The position numbers and the translations under genes were made by a program. The notes beneath the pieces were generated by a model that saw only the letters and a program-made list of their open reading frames with translations, was not told the DNA's origin and made no database searches. DNA of 64,000 bases from Pseudomonas muyukensis (lineage in GTDB: Bacteria; Pseudomonadota; Gammaproteobacteria; Pseudomonadales; Pseudomonadaceae), in contig NZ_CP077073.1 in the NCBI RefSeq assembly GCF_019139535.1, positions 3,252,501 to 3,316,500 of the forward strand, written 5' to 3'. Shown one piece after another: positions 49,704 through 60,309 of this stretch. Each line of letters begins with the position of its first letter. Within the stretch, counting starts at the first letter, position 1.

Positions 49704-53171
<3,468 letters not shown>

Positions 53172-53175
53172 AATC

Positions 53176-53997
53176 TTGACCAGCGAACGCAACACCGATA
53201 TCGAGATCCGGCTGCTGATCGAGGCGATCTACCTCAAGTACAGCTACGATTTTCGCGATTACTCCGGCGCATCGATCAAGCGCCGGATCCTCCATGCCTT
53301 GCGCCAGTTCGATTGCCGCACGGTGTCGGCCTTGCAGGAACGGGTGCTGCACGACCCGGGCATGTTCCTCGAGCTGCTGCAGTTCCTGACGATTCCGGTC
53401 AGCGAGATGTTCCGCGACCCGGGGCACTTTCTGGCGCTGCGCAACGAGGTGGTGCCGCTGCTGCGCACCTGGCCGTCGCTGAAGATCTGGATTGCCGGTT
53501 GCAGCACGGGCGAGGAGGTGTACTCCATGGCCATCCTGCTACGCGAGGAGGGGCTGCTGGAGCGCACCATCATTTATGCCACCGACATCAACCCACATTC
53601 GCTGGAGCGCGCCAAGCAAGGCATCTACTCGATGCAGAGCATGCGCGATTACCAGGAAAACTATCGCAAGGCCGGCGGCCGCCGCGATTTCAGCGAGTAC
53701 TACACCGCCGCCTATGGCAACGCGATCATCGATTCCAGCCTGCGCGAGAACGTCACCTTCGCCGACCACAGCCTGGCCACCGACAGCGTGTTCTCCGAGA
53801 CCCAGCTGGTGTCGTGCCGCAATGTGCTGATCTATTTCAACAAGGGCCTGCAGGACCGGGCCCTGGGCTTGTTCCACGAGTCGCTGTGCCACCGTGGCTT
53901 CCTGGTGTTGGGCAGCAAGGAATCGGTGGACTTCTCGGCCTATGGCGAGCGCTTCGAGCCGCTGGTGCGGCCCGAGCGGATCTACCGCAAGGTATGA
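53176..53997 (+). CDS. CheR-type protein-glutamate methyltransferase
   Basis: A 273-residue CheR protein with the N-terminal helical domain (residues ~8-75) and a SAM-binding domain (IWIAGCSTGEEVYSMAILL, ATDINPHSLERAKQGIYS, SCRNVLIYFNKGLQDRAL). The likely start is TTG 53176, four bases after the kinase stop; no ATG fits. It lies between hybrid kinases rather than in a chemotaxis operon, so its methylation target may be a kinase or a dedicated receptor. Its stop overlaps the cheB start (ATGA). Confidence 0.92.
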   Translation: MTSERNTDIEIRLLIEAIYLKYSYDFRDYSGASIKRRILHALRQFDCRTVSALQERVLHDPGMFLELLQFLTIPVSEMFRDPGHFLALRNEVVPLLRTWPSLKIWIAGCSTGEEVYSMAILLREEGLLERTIIYATDINPHSLERAKQGIYSMQSMRDYQENYRKAGGRRDFSEYYTAAYGNAIIDSSLRENVTFADHSLATDSVFSETQLVSCRNVLIYFNKGLQDRALGLFHESLCHRGFLVLGSKESVDFSAYGERFEPLVRPERIYRKV

Positions 53998-54569
53998 GCG
54001 GCGTGCGCGCGATCGTCATCGGCGCCTCGGCGGGGGGCGTAGCGGCGTTGTTCAGCGTGCTCGGCGCGCTGCCGGCCGCCTTCGCCGTGCCGGTACTGTG
54101 CGTGCTGCACCTGCCGGACGACCGCCACAGCCAACTGGCCGAGGTGCTGCAGCGGCGTTTGCGCCGACCTGTGCGCGAGGCGCAGGACAAGGCCGCCATC
54201 GAGCCTGGCCTGATCTACGTGGCCGGGCCGGGCTACCACCTGTCGGTGGAGCGTGACCTGAGCTTTTCCCTGAGCCAGGAGGAGCCGGTGCATTTCTCGC
54301 GACCGGCAATCGATCTGTTGTTCGAGTCGGCGGCCGATGCCTATGGCCCGGCGCTGCTCGGCGTGCTGCTCACCGGTGCCAACGAGGATGGTGCCCGCGG
54401 GCTGCTGCGGATCAGACAAAGTGGAGGCCGGACCGTGGTCCAGGACCCTCGCGACGCACAGGTTGCGCTGATGCCGGAGGCCGCCTTGGCCCTGCACAGC
54501 CCCGACCACATTCTTCCCCTGAGCGGTATCGGGCAGTTGCTCGCTACCCTGGAACCCAGCGCATGCTAA
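53994..54569 (+). CDS. CheB-type methylesterase domain protein (no receiver)
   Basis: A 191-residue protein consisting only of the CheB catalytic domain: S12 in IGASAGG, H39 in VLHLP, and D132 in LLTGANEDGARG form the expected triad. It lacks the N-terminal receiver that regulates classical CheB, so control must come from binding partners. The start overlaps the cheR stop and the stop overlaps the next kinase start, showing tight coupling. Confidence 0.92.
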   Translation: MSGVRAIVIGASAGGVAALFSVLGALPAAFAVPVLCVLHLPDDRHSQLAEVLQRRLRRPVREAQDKAAIEPGLIYVAGPGYHLSVERDLSFSLSQEEPVHFSRPAIDLLFESAADAYGPALLGVLLTGANEDGARGLLRIRQSGGRTVVQDPRDAQVALMPEAALALHSPDHILPLSGIGQLLATLEPSAC

Positions 54570-55789
54570 GCCATATCACCGCCAAACTGCTGATCGTCGA
54601 CGACTTGCCGGAAAACCTGCTGGCCCTCGCTGCCCTGATCCAGGGCGAGGACCGTGAGGTGCACCAGGCCCAGTCCGCCGAGCAGGCCTTGTCGCTGCTG
54701 CTCGAGCACGAGTTCGCCCTGGCCATCCTCGATGTGCAGATGCCGGGCATGAACGGCTTCGAGCTGGCCGAGCTGATGCGCGGCATGGAAAAGACCCGTA
54801 GCATTCCCATCGTCTTCGTCAGCGCCGCCGGGCGCGAGATGAACTACGCCTTCAAGGGTTACGAAAGCGGGGCGGTGGACTTTTTGCACAAGCCGTTGGA
54901 TACCTTGGCGGTGAAGAGCAAGGTGTCGGTGTTCGTCGACCTGTTCCGCCAGCGCAAGGCCCTCGACCGCCAGTTGCAGGCCCTGGAGCGCAGCCGCGCG
55001 GAACAGGAGCAGTTGCTGGCGCAGTTGCAGGTTGCCCGTGGCGAACTGGAGCATGCCGTGCGCATGCGTGACGATTTCATGTCGATCGTCTCCCACGAAG
55101 TGCGTACCCCGCTCAATGGCCTGATCCTCGAGGCCCAGCTGCGGCGCATGCACCTGGCGCGGGGCAACCTGGCGGCGTTCAGCGAGGACAAGCTCAAGGC
55201 CATGGTCGAGCGCGACGAGCGCCAGATCAACAGCCTGATCCGCCTGGTCGAGGACATGCTCGATGTGTCGCGGATTCGCACCGGCAAGCTGTCGATTCGG
55301 CCCAAGGCCTTCGACCTCGGCCAGCTGGTACGCGGGCTGGTGGAGAACTTCGCCGCCCAGGCCCATGCCCTGGACACCCATATCGAACTGCAAGTCTGCG
55401 AGGCCCTGCAGGGCGAGTGGGACGAGTTCCGCATCGAGCAGGTGCTGGCCAACCTGCTGTCCAACGCCTTGCGCTACGGCGAGCGCAAGCCTGTGATGGT
55501 ACGGGTGTTCGCCAACGACAGCATGGCCTGCGTGCAAGTGCAGGACCAGGGTATCGGCATCGATGCGCAAAACCAGCAGCGGATCTTCCAGCAGTTCGAG
55601 CGGGTGGCCGCCCAGCAGGCCAGCGGCGGGCTGGGGTTGGGGCTGTATATTTCCGAGCAGATCGTGCTGGCCCATGGCGGGCGGATCCAGGTCGACAGCC
55701 AGGCCGGCGCGGGGGCGATGTTCAGCGTCTACCTGCCGTTGTCCGGGGTGCTGCAACACTGCGATCAGACCCAGGCAACCTCTGCCTGA
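54563..55789 (+). CDS. Receiver-histidine kinase hybrid (REC-HisKA-HATPase)
   Basis: A 408-residue soluble protein. An N-terminal receiver (D57 in LAILDVQMPGMNG) is followed by a coiled coil, HisKA with H178 (SIVSHEVRTPLNG) and the ATPase domain (LSNALRYGERKP, DQGIGI, GLGLGLYISEQIV). A receiver in front of a kinase lets an upstream kinase, probably the CHASE3 hybrid, switch it. It overlaps the cheB stop codon. Confidence 0.94.
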   Translation: MLSHITAKLLIVDDLPENLLALAALIQGEDREVHQAQSAEQALSLLLEHEFALAILDVQMPGMNGFELAELMRGMEKTRSIPIVFVSAAGREMNYAFKGYESGAVDFLHKPLDTLAVKSKVSVFVDLFRQRKALDRQLQALERSRAEQEQLLAQLQVARGELEHAVRMRDDFMSIVSHEVRTPLNGLILEAQLRRMHLARGNLAAFSEDKLKAMVERDERQINSLIRLVEDMLDVSRIRTGKLSIRPKAFDLGQLVRGLVENFAAQAHALDTHIELQVCEALQGEWDEFRIEQVLANLLSNALRYGERKPVMVRVFANDSMACVQVQDQGIGIDAQNQQRIFQQFERVAAQQASGGLGLGLYISEQIVLAHGGRIQVDSQAGAGAMFSVYLPLSGVLQHCDQTQATSA

Positions 55790-55833
55790 GCCTGGGGTCT
55801 GATAGCCAACCTACCGAATGTGAAGGCGTTGAC

Positions 55834-56211
55834 ATGAGTGAAGATGCACAAGATGTGGTGCTGGTGGTCGAGGACGAACCCGCGATCCGCATGATCCTGC
55901 GGGACTACCTGGCGGGCGAGGGCTACCACGTGCTGGTGGCCGAGGACGGCGAGCAGGCGTTTGCCATTCTTGCCAGCAAGCCGCACCTGGACCTGATGGT
56001 CACCGATTTTCGCCTGCCCGGCGGCATCTCGGGGGTGGAGATCGCCGAGCCGGCGGTGAAGCTGCGCCCGGACCTGAAGGTGATCTTCATCAGCGGCTAC
56101 CCGGCGGAGATCCTCGAATCCGGCAGCCCGATCGCGCGCCAGGCACCGATCCTGGCCAAGCCGTTCGACCTGGACACCTTGCACGCGCAGATCCAGGCGC
56201 TGCTGCGCTAG
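55834..56211 (+). CDS. Single-domain response regulator
   Basis: A 125-residue receiver: E14/D15 acidic residues, D58 in LMVTDFRLPGG, and lysine in ILAKPFDLDTL. It is the last gene of the kinase-CheR-CheB-kinase operon, 44 bases after the second kinase. It has no DNA-binding output, so the pathway probably ends in protein-protein control. Confidence 0.92.
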   Translation: MSEDAQDVVLVVEDEPAIRMILRDYLAGEGYHVLVAEDGEQAFAILASKPHLDLMVTDFRLPGGISGVEIAEPAVKLRPDLKVIFISGYPAEILESGSPIARQAPILAKPFDLDTLHAQIQALLR

Positions 56212-56227
56212 GGCGTAGCCGCCGAGC

Positions 56228-56707
56228 TCAGGGCGCAGCCTGCTCCAGGGCCCGCAGGTCATCCTCCACCTGCTGCATTCGTTGTTCAGCCAGCGCTTGC
56301 ACTGTCGGGTCGCTGGCGCTTTCGCGCATGTACCCGGTCAGCTTCTCGCTCAGGCGCTTGCCTTCGTCGGTATCGCCCAGCGCCTTGGCCTTGGCAGGGT
56401 CGCGGGTGGCGGCGACGATGCTGGCGAATTCGGCATCGGTGAAGTGCTGCTCGCTGTACAGCTTGAACAAGTCCTGGCGTTGGTCCTCGACGGTCAGGTG
56501 CTTGCGCAGCACTTCGCGAATCTTGTCCTCGGGCACTTGCCGGTGGGTCATGGCCAGCAGCCCGGCCATGCGCTCGATGTTATGGCTGTAGGCGTCCTGC
56601 AAGGGCAGCTCGGCGAGGATCTTTTCCTCGCGACTGGGGGGCTGGTCGCAGCCGGCGAGGGCGCCGAGCAGCAGGGCGGGGAGCAGCAGTTTGCGCAGGC
56701 GGGGCAT
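56228..56707 (-). CDS. Lipoprotein of unknown function
   Basis: A 159-residue protein with a lipobox signal (LLLGALAGC, lipidated C20 followed by D, which hints at inner-membrane retention). The mature part is helical and charged (MTHRQVPEDKIREVLRKHLTVED, then YSEQHFTDAEFASIVAAT), somewhat like DUF2059 proteins, but this is not certain. It is convergent with the signalling operon. Confidence 0.8.
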   Translation of the reverse strand: MPRLRKLLLPALLLGALAGCDQPPSREEKILAELPLQDAYSHNIERMAGLLAMTHRQVPEDKIREVLRKHLTVEDQRQDLFKLYSEQHFTDAEFASIVAATRDPAKAKALGDTDEGKRLSEKLTGYMRESASDPTVQALAEQRMQQVEDDLRALEQAAP

Positions 56708-56901
56708 GGGTGGGCCTTGGGTGCGGGGAGGCCTGGGAGTTTACTGCAAGCAGAAGGCCTGCGGGTATGGACATGCCTTCAAGTCAGGAAACCAGCAGGC
56801 TACTCACGCAGGCAACATGCTGAAAACAACCGACCTTTTCCTTTGTACTTGTCCTGCTAGGCTTGGTTGTTCGTTTGGACAGCACATACAAGGATGATGT
56901 A

Positions 56902-58350
56902 ATGGAGCGAAGTACTCGTGATCACTGGCAAGCGTTGCTCAATACCGGGCGACGCAAGGCCGATGGCAAGCAGGCAGCGGTGACGGAGGAAAAGGATGTC
57001 GAGTACCGAACCGCAATTGAACGGGATCATGACCGAATTCTGTTCTGTACACCGGTCCGACGCATGGCCGACAAGACCCAGGTTTTTCCGCTGGATCGCA
57101 ATGACAGTGTGCGCAATCGATTAACCCACTCCCATGAGGTGTCCAACCTGGCCAGAAGCGTTGGCATCACGCTGGCTGTGCATCTCGATTCGCTTAAACC
57201 TCACGATCAGGCTTTTCGGAACATTCCAGCACTGCTTGCCGCCGTCGGGCTGGTTCACGACCTGGGTAACCCGCCCTTCGGCCACCAAGGGGAAGCTGCC
57301 ATACGTAGCTGGTTTGTGGATAACCGCGCAGAACTGACTGGCACAGGGTTCGACCCAGCGTTGTTCGAGGATTTTCTCAAGTTCGAAGGCAATGCGCAGA
57401 CATTCCGCCTGGTGACTCGTCTGCAGTTGCTCAACGACAACTACGGTCTCGACCTGACCTACGCGACCCTTGCGGCGATGATGAAATACCCGGTGGCCTC
57501 GACGTCCGTGAGCAAGACTGCTGGTGTCGCGTGCAAGAAACACGGTTTCTTCCATTCAGAGCAAAGCATCGCCGAGGATGTGCTGAGTAAGGTAGGGTTG
57601 GCGGTTGGTCGTCGCCACGCCATGGCGTACATCATGGAAGCGTGCGACGATATCGCCTATGCGGTGCTGGACGCCGAAGATGCAATAAAGAAGGGCCTCG
57701 CGTCCTTTTATGATTTGATGGCCTACCTCCGGCACCACCATCACCATAATGACCTGGTGAAACGGGTTGTTGACCTGGGCGAGGCAAAGCACGGCGAGTA
57801 CCGAGAGGCCAACCTGTCACCGAGCGAACTGAACGATGTGTCAATGCAGCGCTTCCGTGTTTACGCGATCGGTGAAATGATCAACGCGGTAACCAAGGCC
57901 TTTATCGAGAATGAGGGGGCGTTCGCCGCAGGCGATGAGAAGCGCACGCTGCTGCAGCTATCGACAGCGGCCGAACTGCGTAATGCTTTATGCGATTTTT
58001 CTCGTAAGTATGCTTTCGTCCACCGGACTGTGCTGGAGGTCGAACTGCGTGGATACAATACGATTCATCAGTTGATGGATATTTTCTGGGCTGCCATCGC
58101 CGAGACGGACCCTGACGATTCTGACAAGGTACTGCCAGAAAACCCCTATAATCGTTACGTCTTTACCAGGATTTCTGAGAACTACCGCCGTGTATACCGA
58201 GATCCAGCAGCCGAAGTGAAGGCCTTACCTGCACGTTATAGGCAGTTCCTACTGCTGACGGACATGATTTCAGGCATGACTGATACCTATGCGGTCAATC
58301 TGCTCGAAGAGTTGAACGCTTTCAAAAAACCGACCCTGCAATGTAGATGA
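56902..58350 (+). CDS. dGTPase-family dNTP triphosphohydrolase (HD domain)
   Basis: A 482-residue HD-domain enzyme; AAGGA lies about eight bases before ATG 56902. Dgt motifs are intact: RLTHSHEVSNLARSVG (H76/H78), AVGLVHDLGNPPFGHQGEAAI (H119-D120), FEGNAQTFRLVTRLQ, and ACDDIAYAVLDAEDAIKKG (D249-D250). Such enzymes cleave dNTPs to nucleosides and triphosphate; some act in antiphage defence by depleting dNTPs. The sequence is less GC-rich than its neighbours (bases 58021-58080 are 30/60 G+C by count, against 46/60 for 54061-54120), suggesting transfer. Its stop overlaps the next start (ATGA), so it works with a nucleotidyltransferase. Length is close to E. coli Dgt. Confidence 0.92.
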   Translation: MERSTRDHWQALLNTGRRKADGKQAAVTEEKDVEYRTAIERDHDRILFCTPVRRMADKTQVFPLDRNDSVRNRLTHSHEVSNLARSVGITLAVHLDSLKPHDQAFRNIPALLAAVGLVHDLGNPPFGHQGEAAIRSWFVDNRAELTGTGFDPALFEDFLKFEGNAQTFRLVTRLQLLNDNYGLDLTYATLAAMMKYPVASTSVSKTAGVACKKHGFFHSEQSIAEDVLSKVGLAVGRRHAMAYIMEACDDIAYAVLDAEDAIKKGLASFYDLMAYLRHHHHHNDLVKRVVDLGEAKHGEYREANLSPSELNDVSMQRFRVYAIGEMINAVTKAFIENEGAFAAGDEKRTLLQLSTAAELRNALCDFSRKYAFVHRTVLEVELRGYNTIHQLMDIFWAAIAETDPDDSDKVLPENPYNRYVFTRISENYRRVYRDPAAEVKALPARYRQFLLLTDMISGMTDTYAVNLLEELNAFKKPTLQCR

Positions 58351-59039
58351 TCAACACGCGCCAAAAGCTGATCACGTACCTGCGCAAACGCGACGGCGTC
58401 AAGCCGTCGCTTCAGGCTACCCTGGTCAACATCCGATGCAAGCTGCCCGATGTGGTGATCTTCGGTGGGATGGTCAGGGACTTTGGCTTGGGTGTCAGGC
58501 ACTTTTCATCAGACATCGACATGGTGACCACGGCCCCGGCCGAGGAAATCCGTCGTGCCCTTGCCGGCCTGAACCCGATCATGAACAAGTTCGGCGGTTT
58601 CAGATTTTCCGAGAATGGGCGCCTGTTTGATATCTGGTCGTTACACGACACCTGGGCTATCCGCGAGGGGCATGCCCAAGCCAATAGCCTGACAGATTTG
58701 TGCAAGACCACATTTTTCAACCTGGACGCGATCATCTTCGACGTGCGAGCGTTGAAGGTCTGCACCCTTCGGGGCTATGACGATGACTTGCTCAGGCGTG
58801 TACTGGATATCAACCTGCAAGCCAACCCAAACCCCCGGCAGATGGCCATCCGTGCGGTACGCATGGCCATTCAGAAGGATCTCCAGTTGGCTCCGGCGCT
58901 AGTGGACTACGTGCTGGGACAGTTATATGGCAGCTCGTTAAACCTGACTTTCGAATCCTATGTACGCCAGTTGCATGACCACACAACCCGCAGTGCCGAC
59001 TCTCCCTTCCGATTCGAGCCGCAACTGAAAATCTGGTAA
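58347..59039 (+). CDS. Minimal CCA-adding/poly(A)-polymerase-type nucleotidyltransferase
   Basis: A 230-residue protein starting at ATG 58347 inside the dGTPase stop. The class II nucleotidyltransferase head is clear: FGGMVRDFGLG (G40-G41, R44-D45) and SSDIDMV with catalytic D56 and D58. The neck-like region LRRVLDINLQANPNPRQMAIRAVRMA matches the LRA motif of CCA enzymes and poly(A) polymerases. It lacks the body/tail and HD domains of housekeeping Cca (~410 aa), so it is unlikely to be the cell's tRNA CCA enzyme. Paired with a dNTPase it may modify RNA or nucleotides in a stress or phage response. Function is inferred only. Confidence 0.82.
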   Translation: MINTRQKLITYLRKRDGVKPSLQATLVNIRCKLPDVVIFGGMVRDFGLGVRHFSSDIDMVTTAPAEEIRRALAGLNPIMNKFGGFRFSENGRLFDIWSLHDTWAIREGHAQANSLTDLCKTTFFNLDAIIFDVRALKVCTLRGYDDDLLRRVLDINLQANPNPRQMAIRAVRMAIQKDLQLAPALVDYVLGQLYGSSLNLTFESYVRQLHDHTTRSADSPFRFEPQLKIW

Positions 59040-59048
59040 GTGCCGCAC

Positions 59049-59204
59049 TCAGCGCTGGAATGGATTGCGCAGGCGCACCCAGACGATGGCTGGCAGCGCC
59101 ATCAACAACCATTTCAGGTATTGATTCACCCCGTAGTACTCGCAAGCGGTACCAATGAGCGTGCACAGCACGACCACGGCAATAAATTGAATCATTCTGT
59201 CCAT
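59049..59204 (-). CDS. Small membrane protein
   Basis: A 51-residue protein from ATG 59204 (MDRMIQFIAVVVLCTLIGTA) with two hydrophobic stretches (about 5-18 and 29-42) and a basic C-terminus. A second ATG lies nine bases further in. The ribosome site is weak. It is convergent with the nucleotidyltransferase gene, 9 bp apart. No family recognised. Confidence 0.45.
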   Translation of the reverse strand: MDRMIQFIAVVVLCTLIGTACEYYGVNQYLKWLLMALPAIVWVRLRNPFQR

Positions 59205-59374
59205 CAAGCAGGTTCCACTGTCTCTGTGTATCAGGGCGGGCACTCTAGCAGTGGGGCATGCCGGGTGCAGTCCTCGCCTGCGCCCATGCCATATGGTGTA
59301 ACACTTTATCCGTCCAACAATCGCTGCGCCCTTGGCTATCGTGCCAGCTCCCGTCAGTGCAGGAGGTGCGTGCG

Positions 59375-59755
59375 ATGACCCGCTTTACTGGTGGCTGCCT
59401 GTGTGGCCGCATCCGTTTTATCGCCGAGGGCGAGGCCGATTTTCCCCATACCTGTTCCTGTTCCCAGTGCCAGCGGCACTCGGGTGGCTTGACCCTGTGC
59501 TGGGTCGAGTTCGACAAGGCAGCGGTCAGCTGGGTCGGGGAGGGGCGTGCGCCTGCGCTGTACCGTTCCTCGTCAGCGTCCAGCCGTGCCTTCTGCGCCA
59601 CCTGCGGCAGCTCCCTGGGCGCCGTCGACGATGGGCCGACCGTGGCCTTGTTGCTGGGCTGTTTCGATGACCCACAGGCGCCGGGCCTTAGACCGGTTGC
59701 GCATGCGTTCGAAGGCAGCCGGCCGGCTTGGTGGAAGGTCGATGCCGGTGGCTGA
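59375..59755 (+). CDS. GFA/CENP-V-type zinc protein
   Basis: A 126-residue protein; AGGAGG at 59361-59366 fixes ATG 59375. Zinc cysteines appear as GGCLCG (C8, C10), CSCSQC (C27, C29, C32) and FCATCGSSLG, the pattern of the glutathione-dependent formaldehyde-activating (GFA) family. Most members bind zinc and some react with glutathione adducts, but the specific role is unknown. It stands alone. Confidence 0.9.
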   Translation: MTRFTGGCLCGRIRFIAEGEADFPHTCSCSQCQRHSGGLTLCWVEFDKAAVSWVGEGRAPALYRSSSASSRAFCATCGSSLGAVDDGPTVALLLGCFDDPQAPGLRPVAHAFEGSRPAWWKVDAGG

Positions 59756-59946
59756 TCAGTCGCGACGCTTGGGGCGATCAACTAGGGGCGGCGTCGCCAG
59801 TGCGCCAGCAGGCAGCACGGGCAGCTCCGCCAGCTCGTTTGTCAGACCCTTCCCGTATCAGGCGGCATCCCTCAACACCGCGTTCATTTCCAGCCCAAGC
59901 GCAATCGCCTACCGTCTCCTTCCCGTCAACGCCAAGGAGCTAACCC

Positions 59947-60267
59947 ATGCCAGAGCTTGCGTTATACAAAGTGAAACTGCTGGACGAATTCGAGGCCCGT
60001 GCAGATGAGTGGACCTGCGGGCATTTCGAGCGGCGCCTGACCGAGGTCAAGCCTGCAGCCTACTACCAGGACGCCAAAGGCATCATCATCGCCGCGCACA
60101 AGGCCGGAAACTGGCCAAACACGGTCAAGCGCTACCTGCTCAGCAACTACAAGGCGTTTGGCAATGTCAGCAGCGAGTTCAGCGAGATTTTCGTCCAGGT
60201 ACTGGCCAGCTTGACGCCGCAGGAGCTGGCGTACTGGCAACTACCCCAGGCCACTGAGCCGGCATGA
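59947..60267 (+). CDS. Small conserved hypothetical protein
   Basis: A 106-residue soluble protein with AAGGAG before ATG 59947. It begins MPELALYKVKLLDEFEARADEW and has alternating strand/helix character, no signal peptide and no recognised motif. It is convergent with the OprD gene at 60310. Function unknown. Confidence 0.72.
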   Translation: MPELALYKVKLLDEFEARADEWTCGHFERRLTEVKPAAYYQDAKGIIIAAHKAGNWPNTVKRYLLSNYKAFGNVSSEFSEIFVQVLASLTPQELAYWQLPQATEPA

Positions 60268-60309
60268 TCCCGACACACCTCGACCTGGCCCGGTTCCCGG
60301 CAGGCTGAA

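Follow-up and report, generated by a model that had tools for sequence, protein, structure and literature searches.

The closest described relative of the locus presented here is Clover, an antiphage system composed of CloA and CloB, which was reported by Yamaguchi et al. in a preprint of July 2025 and studied in Salmonella enterica SA20044414 and E. coli H5, with structures of CloA deposited as PDB 9p8s to 9p8v (PMC12265719). As set out in that preprint, dTTP activates and p3diT inhibits the dGTPase CloA, p3diT itself being the product of the nucleotidyltransferase CloB; defense against T5-like phages depends on the HD motif of CloA, and mutation of CloB renders CloA toxic. Within the p3diT pocket, the two thymines are described as read by D37, N75, and Q311, mutating R29, R34, and R38 abolished the inhibition of CloA, and Q427 of the Salmonella protein (SeCloA) was described to steady the suppressed loop. 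A distantly related CloB from Xanthomonas also produced p3diT. CloA of Clover is an octamer; the stand-alone antiphage dGTPase of Shewanella putrefaciens (SpdGTPase), a hexamer, is active without activator and without a partner (PMC12265719). Beyond this preprint, no relevant paper on p3diT or on CloA and CloB was found in the literature searched.

In a window of 64 kb, the whole stretch of DNA analyzed, a chromosomal two-gene cassette of a Pseudomonas is very probably such a CloA-CloB antiphage system, with the signal, the activation by dTTP, the hydrolysis of dGTP, and the restriction of phage attributed to it by analogy with its relatives. What carries this reading is observed in the sequence itself, namely the anatomy of the cassette, the family membership of its proteins, the conservation of their sites, the linkage of the two genes, and the insertion into a site that is empty in related genomes. 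The initial annotation had proposed an antiphage dGTPase combined with a regulatory nucleotidyltransferase acting through a signal or by inhibition, which matches Clover as published for the Salmonella and E. coli relatives; its further statement, that it knew of no described system with this exact pair, has been overtaken by the 2025 preprint, in which Clover is the pair (PMC12265719). As in Salmonella and E. coli, cloA is followed by cloB in a two-gene operon, and the features of the locus are as follows (positions refer to the window).

56902 to 58350, plus strand: cloA, an HD-domain dGTP triphosphohydrolase of 482 amino acids and probable Clover effector (phmmer, TIGR01353, residue map, tree)
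58347 to 59039, plus strand: cloB, a nucleotidyltransferase of 230 amino acids of the CCA/poly(A) polymerase head type, with p3diT as the expected product (PolyA_pol, conserved Asp, AF2 model)
58347 to 58350, plus strand: ATGA, overlap of the cloA stop and the cloB start (sequence)
57256 to 57297, plus strand: region of the CloA HD motif and HE dyad (H119, D120, H128, E131; SeCloA H117, D118, H126, E129)
56750 to 59048, strand not assigned: inserted segment carrying cloA and cloB only, approximate extent, 2299 bp, GC 0.5485 (from the flanks in genomes G102 and G173)

The reading frame of cloA opens with the ATG at 56902, with AAGGA just 5' of it, and its stop codon ends at 58350, while cloB runs on the same strand from the ATG at 58347 to a stop ending at 59039. 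GC content is 0.551 over the cassette compared with 0.656 over the whole window; when same-length stretches were slid across the window in steps of 50, only 7 of 1238 had a GC at or below that of the cassette, and all stretches within 0.005 of its value start between 56650 and 57350, that is, on the cassette itself. Third codon positions follow the same trend, with a GC3 of 0.63 in cloA and 0.73 in cloB versus 0.89 to 0.90 in the three neighboring genes measured. The two frames, their four-base overlap, and the lower GC relative to the flanks are thus present as the initial annotation had stated, and the motifs it named (H119/D120, GG..RD, and D56/D58) were all found in the two proteins.

CloA scores 302.8 bits against the NCBIfam model TIGR01353 (dGTP_triPase), above the curated cut-off of 152.35, and narrowly passes the cut-off of Pfam HD (22.7 bits, cut-off 22). 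Against SeCloA (PDB 9p8s) phmmer gave 464.7 bits over residues 8-475; the CloA structures 9p8s to 9p8v score between 457 and 465 bits, and the best dGTPase structure other than CloA reached 194.5 bits. CloA shares the HD-type dGTPase fold, and likely the chemistry, with SpdGTPase (PDB 9p8w), from which it differs by a match of 88.9 bits instead of the 464.7 bits for 9p8s and by the presence of a CloB partner. With 233 identical residues among 455 aligned (51%), the catalytic, inhibitor, and activator sites of SeCloA are nearly all kept. All six catalytic residues of the HD motif, the HE dyad, and the metal ligands are retained (H76, H119, D120, D249, H128, and E131, corresponding to SeCloA H69, H117, D118, D242, H126, and E129). 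The p3diT pocket is identical at eight of ten positions (R29, R34, D37, R38, F41, N75, Q311, and R314), the two differences being T25 and N181 of SeCloA, which are D32 and D184 here. In the dTTP site, eight of nine positions are identical (R47, D61, Q172, K256, S418, N420, T449, and Y452), and A444, a main-chain contact in SeCloA, is replaced by Met. Further differences concern SeCloA Q427 and H263, which are D434 and Y270. The dGTP contact Q377 of the preprint (PMC12265719) was left out of this comparison on account of a numbering mismatch, Glu being found at that place in both proteins.

To what extent these residues are characteristic of Clover can be read from a table and tree of 39 sequences, comprising 32 Clover CloA and 7 dGTPases without a CloB neighbor. 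Loci that repeat a place already represented (L002, L005, and L032 to L037) were omitted, as were L017, L024, L031, and L039, whose CloA frames fell below 380 amino acids after trimming to the first Met; some frames were taken from the stop or the first Met, and their N-termini may be off. N75 (30 of 32 Clover rows, none of the 7 controls) and Q172 (32 of 32, again none) are the two positions that separate Clover from the dGTPases without CloB. Q311 (29 of 32 versus 1 of 7), R34 (29 of 32 versus 2 of 7), and K256 (32 of 32 versus 2 of 7) also occur among the controls, and R38 (7/7), R47 (7/7), R314 (6/7), and R29 (5/7) are so common there that they do not discriminate Clover. Position 181, in the numbering of SeCloA, is Asn in 18 and Asp in 14 of the 32 CloA rows, position 452 is Tyr in 20 and Phe in 12, and position 25 varies widely; N181D is predicted to be a change that could weaken phosphate binding. 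In the tree, the 32 Clover rows lie on one side of a branch with a support of 100/98 and the 7 rows without CloB on the other, a separation that carries a long-branch warning. The PADLOC 2023 library matched only CloA of the two proteins.

The second protein, CloB, scores 25.3 to 25.5 bits against Pfam PolyA_pol, just above the cut-off of 23. It was aligned with 25 of its 54 matches (26 sequences in total), and across 35 aligned CloB rows, including the present one and that of E. coli SCU-301, the residues D56, D58, and D95 are kept without exception; going by the motif, D95 would be the third carboxylate of the [D/E]h[D/E]..h[D/E]h active site. The E. coli protein, which has 250 amino acids, adjoins a cloA, and is not the assayed one, is 32% identical to the 230-residue CloB of Pseudomonas; that of Pseudomonas xantholysinigenes is 87% identical. 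The AF2 model (mean pLDDT 91.5) finds its best PDB matches in CCA-adding and related tRNA-processing enzymes; TM-scores over the query range from 0.46 to 0.60 among the 47 matches with an E-value of 0.001 or lower, and those over the target from 0.26 to 0.39 among the 46 best-ranked, CCA-type matches, a level as expected for a predicted head domain without the tRNA-binding parts. CloB thus has the head fold, the GG..RD, and the DxD in common with CCA-adding enzymes and poly(A) polymerase I, but differs in offering no room for a tRNA-binding body and tail: judged by length and predicted fold, the 230 residues account for the head and a short helical end, and the CCA-type body and tail are absent. 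Tagging of tRNA ends was rejected as the first choice of function, given the missing body and tail and a CCA equivalog score of 10.7 bits, not significant against a cut-off of 290. Among the options offered by the initial annotation, it appears the least likely, in line with the head-only architecture and with the p3diT made by the CloB enzymes of the preprint (PMC12265719). Nor is the protein "truncated", as it had been termed, 230 residues falling within the usual length of its own family.

A survey of gene neighborhoods, which the initial annotation had called for, revealed wide co-occurrence of the two genes. GTDB contigs scanned with the CloB alignment yielded 26 loci, one of them in Pseudomonas fluorescens (L006), and in 23 of these CloB has a CloA frame, 459 amino acids or longer, directly upstream on the same strand. 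The other three comprise a CloA frame of 399 amino acids (L024), a fragment of 89 amino acids near a contig start (L017), and, in Buttiauxella (L031, 5713-6524), a single frame of 164 amino acids matching both CloA and CloB, apparently a remnant. This survey was seeded from CloB and does not measure how often CloA occurs without it. Within 398 Pseudomonas genomes drawn from a larger group, cloB is found in 6, including the present one, with CloA upstream in all 6. The distances of CloA and CloB correlate with r = 0.805 over 31 rows, a value reached in none of 2000 permutations. In plasmid records, CloB was found in two, both from Phaeobacter piscinae; on the conjugative plasmid pP14_b of this organism (L040, 1376-5663) the Clover pair lies directly 3' of genes that carry the annotations phage Gp37/Gp68 family protein and three-Cys-motif partner TcmP. 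Viral contigs gave no match to a single CloB sequence used as query, and in phage records (25) the matches were only to dGTPases, at identities below 60%.

In E. coli SCU-301 (L038, 4269-6498), cloA and cloB stand alone between flhB and cheZ. Among 5426 complete E. coli genomes, the flhB-cheZ region carrying the pair reaches a coverage of 80% or more in 102 and shows some match in 5336, so that most hold the flanks only; for the cassette alone, 103 genomes gave a match, which in one case is partial. In E. coli CLSC36 (L039, 3269-5498), cloA is annotated in two pieces next to an intact cloB.

The site occupied in the present genome can be compared with that in six related genomes chosen by the downstream flank. 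In two of these (G102 and G173) the site is empty, with the flanks (to 56749 and from 59049 in the window) 17 nt apart, from which it follows that the segment gained or lost measures about 2.3 kb and holds only cloA and cloB, a manner of insertion that resembles the one in E. coli. In the remaining four (G169, G025, G370, and G258) the upstream flank lies on another contig, or at a distance on the same one. In a further genome, G109, the pair occupies this very site, within DNA that aligns with window positions 52188-60268 at 85%, and the G109 copy is intact, with 84% identity in CloA and 87% in CloB. The inserted segment contains no recombinase gene, no direct repeat was found to flank it, and no tRNA gene was found in the 64-kb window. 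A larger defense island was considered and rejected: among six neighboring frames compared with PADLOC at 1e-3 (53176-53997, 54563-55789, 55834-56211, 59375-59755, 59947-60267, and the lipoprotein-like frame 56228-56707), only 55834-56211 gave a match, to PD-T4-6 with 32.5 bits; this frame is of the response-regulator type (Pfam Response_reg), and the match is read as a shared receiver domain. Directly downstream of the cassette, a frame of about 50 amino acids on the minus strand (59050-59204) has, by eye, the look of a small membrane protein; it is placed outside the system because Pseudomonas genomes that lack the cassette also contain DNA related to it.

By analogy with the published system, CloB would join two dTTP to form p3diT, which would bind in the arginine-lined pocket between CloA protomers and keep CloA off in uninfected cells. 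A phage that raises dTTP would allow dTTP to outcompete p3diT and to fill the adjacent activating site, whereupon dTTP-bound CloA would complete its active site and hydrolyze dGTP, with phage DNA synthesis being starved as a consequence. The copy is a well-kept and clean but ordinary example of published Clover, in which only the copy as such, the site where it lies, and the Asp at inhibitor-pocket position 181 are new. With it, Clover gains a well-preserved and cleanly inserted copy outside the assayed branch, whose empty site has been identified in relatives, and the genus offers good laboratory strains.

Different readings of the pair have to be weighed against Clover. A chance adjacency of a dGTPase with a housekeeping role and a nucleotidyltransferase that acts on tRNA or on RNA 3' ends is exceedingly improbable, even if the Pfam name of the second protein denotes the head of poly(A) polymerase and its predicted fold is nearest to CCA-adding and related tRNA-processing enzymes. 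The genome, a single contig of 5,527,654 bases, holds another TIGR01353 dGTPase gene (2404812-2406035, 317.2 bits), which scores above CloA, and two other PolyA_pol genes (at 1470890 and 181440, with 147 and 69.2 bits versus about 25 for cloB), which we take to be pcnB and cca. With these genes present the pair is not housekeeping, and the initial annotation's reservation, that it might hold the only cca or dgt gene of the genome, falls away. Although the other dGTPase belongs to the same family as CloA, it is 32% identical and differs by R34K, N75C, Q311A, Q172E, K256E, and S418G. The rarity of cloB in the genus, the low GC and GC3, the empty site in relatives, and the consistent pairing of the two genes across genomes likewise argue against a housekeeping role. 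A decayed or silent Clover copy is very unlikely. Broken copies do occur elsewhere, as the split cloA of E. coli CLSC36 and the Buttiauxella remnant illustrate, and a scan of 56700-59300 gave no match to a sigma-70-type promoter, where shuffled sequences led to an expectation of 1.5, but such a scan can miss Pseudomonas promoters. Both frames of the present copy are open with all catalytic residues kept, and the copy at the same site in G109 is intact as well.

Distinctly unlikely, too, is a Clover variant in which CloB makes a different nucleotide signal, with another base or 5' end, to which CloA is tuned. Such a change might be suspected from the replacement of both p3diT contacts N181 and T25 by Asp, the former shared by 14 of the 32 CloA rows, and from the low identity to the E. 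coli CloB. On the other hand, the residues described as reading thymine (D37, N75, and Q311) and those critical for inhibition (R29, R34, and R38) are unchanged, and even the distant CloB of Xanthomonas yields p3diT (PMC12265719). Clover with p3diT as its signal remains the preferred reading, and the Asp at position 181, common to groups of Clover relatives, may or may not matter functionally. The copy would gain greater weight if this residue marks a change of the inhibitory signal; otherwise it confirms the published system. It is conceivable, if unlikely, that the Pseudomonas and betaproteobacterial branch with Asp 181 uses an inhibitor of different charge or phosphorylation, for example with one 5' phosphate fewer, which would amount to dialects of the Clover signal with L080 and L081 as the extreme case. 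These two Pseudomonas loci (L080, 4059-6570, in G189; L081, 5724-8244, in G126) form a divergent Clover branch with a CloA branch length of 3.17, and carry R34Q and Q311E in CloA (SeCloA numbering) together with R86G and T121G in CloB (window numbering). In a locus from Bdellovibrionota (L030), CloA shows R34K and Q311E. Judged by these substitutions, L080, L081, and L030 are candidates for a different inhibitory signal.
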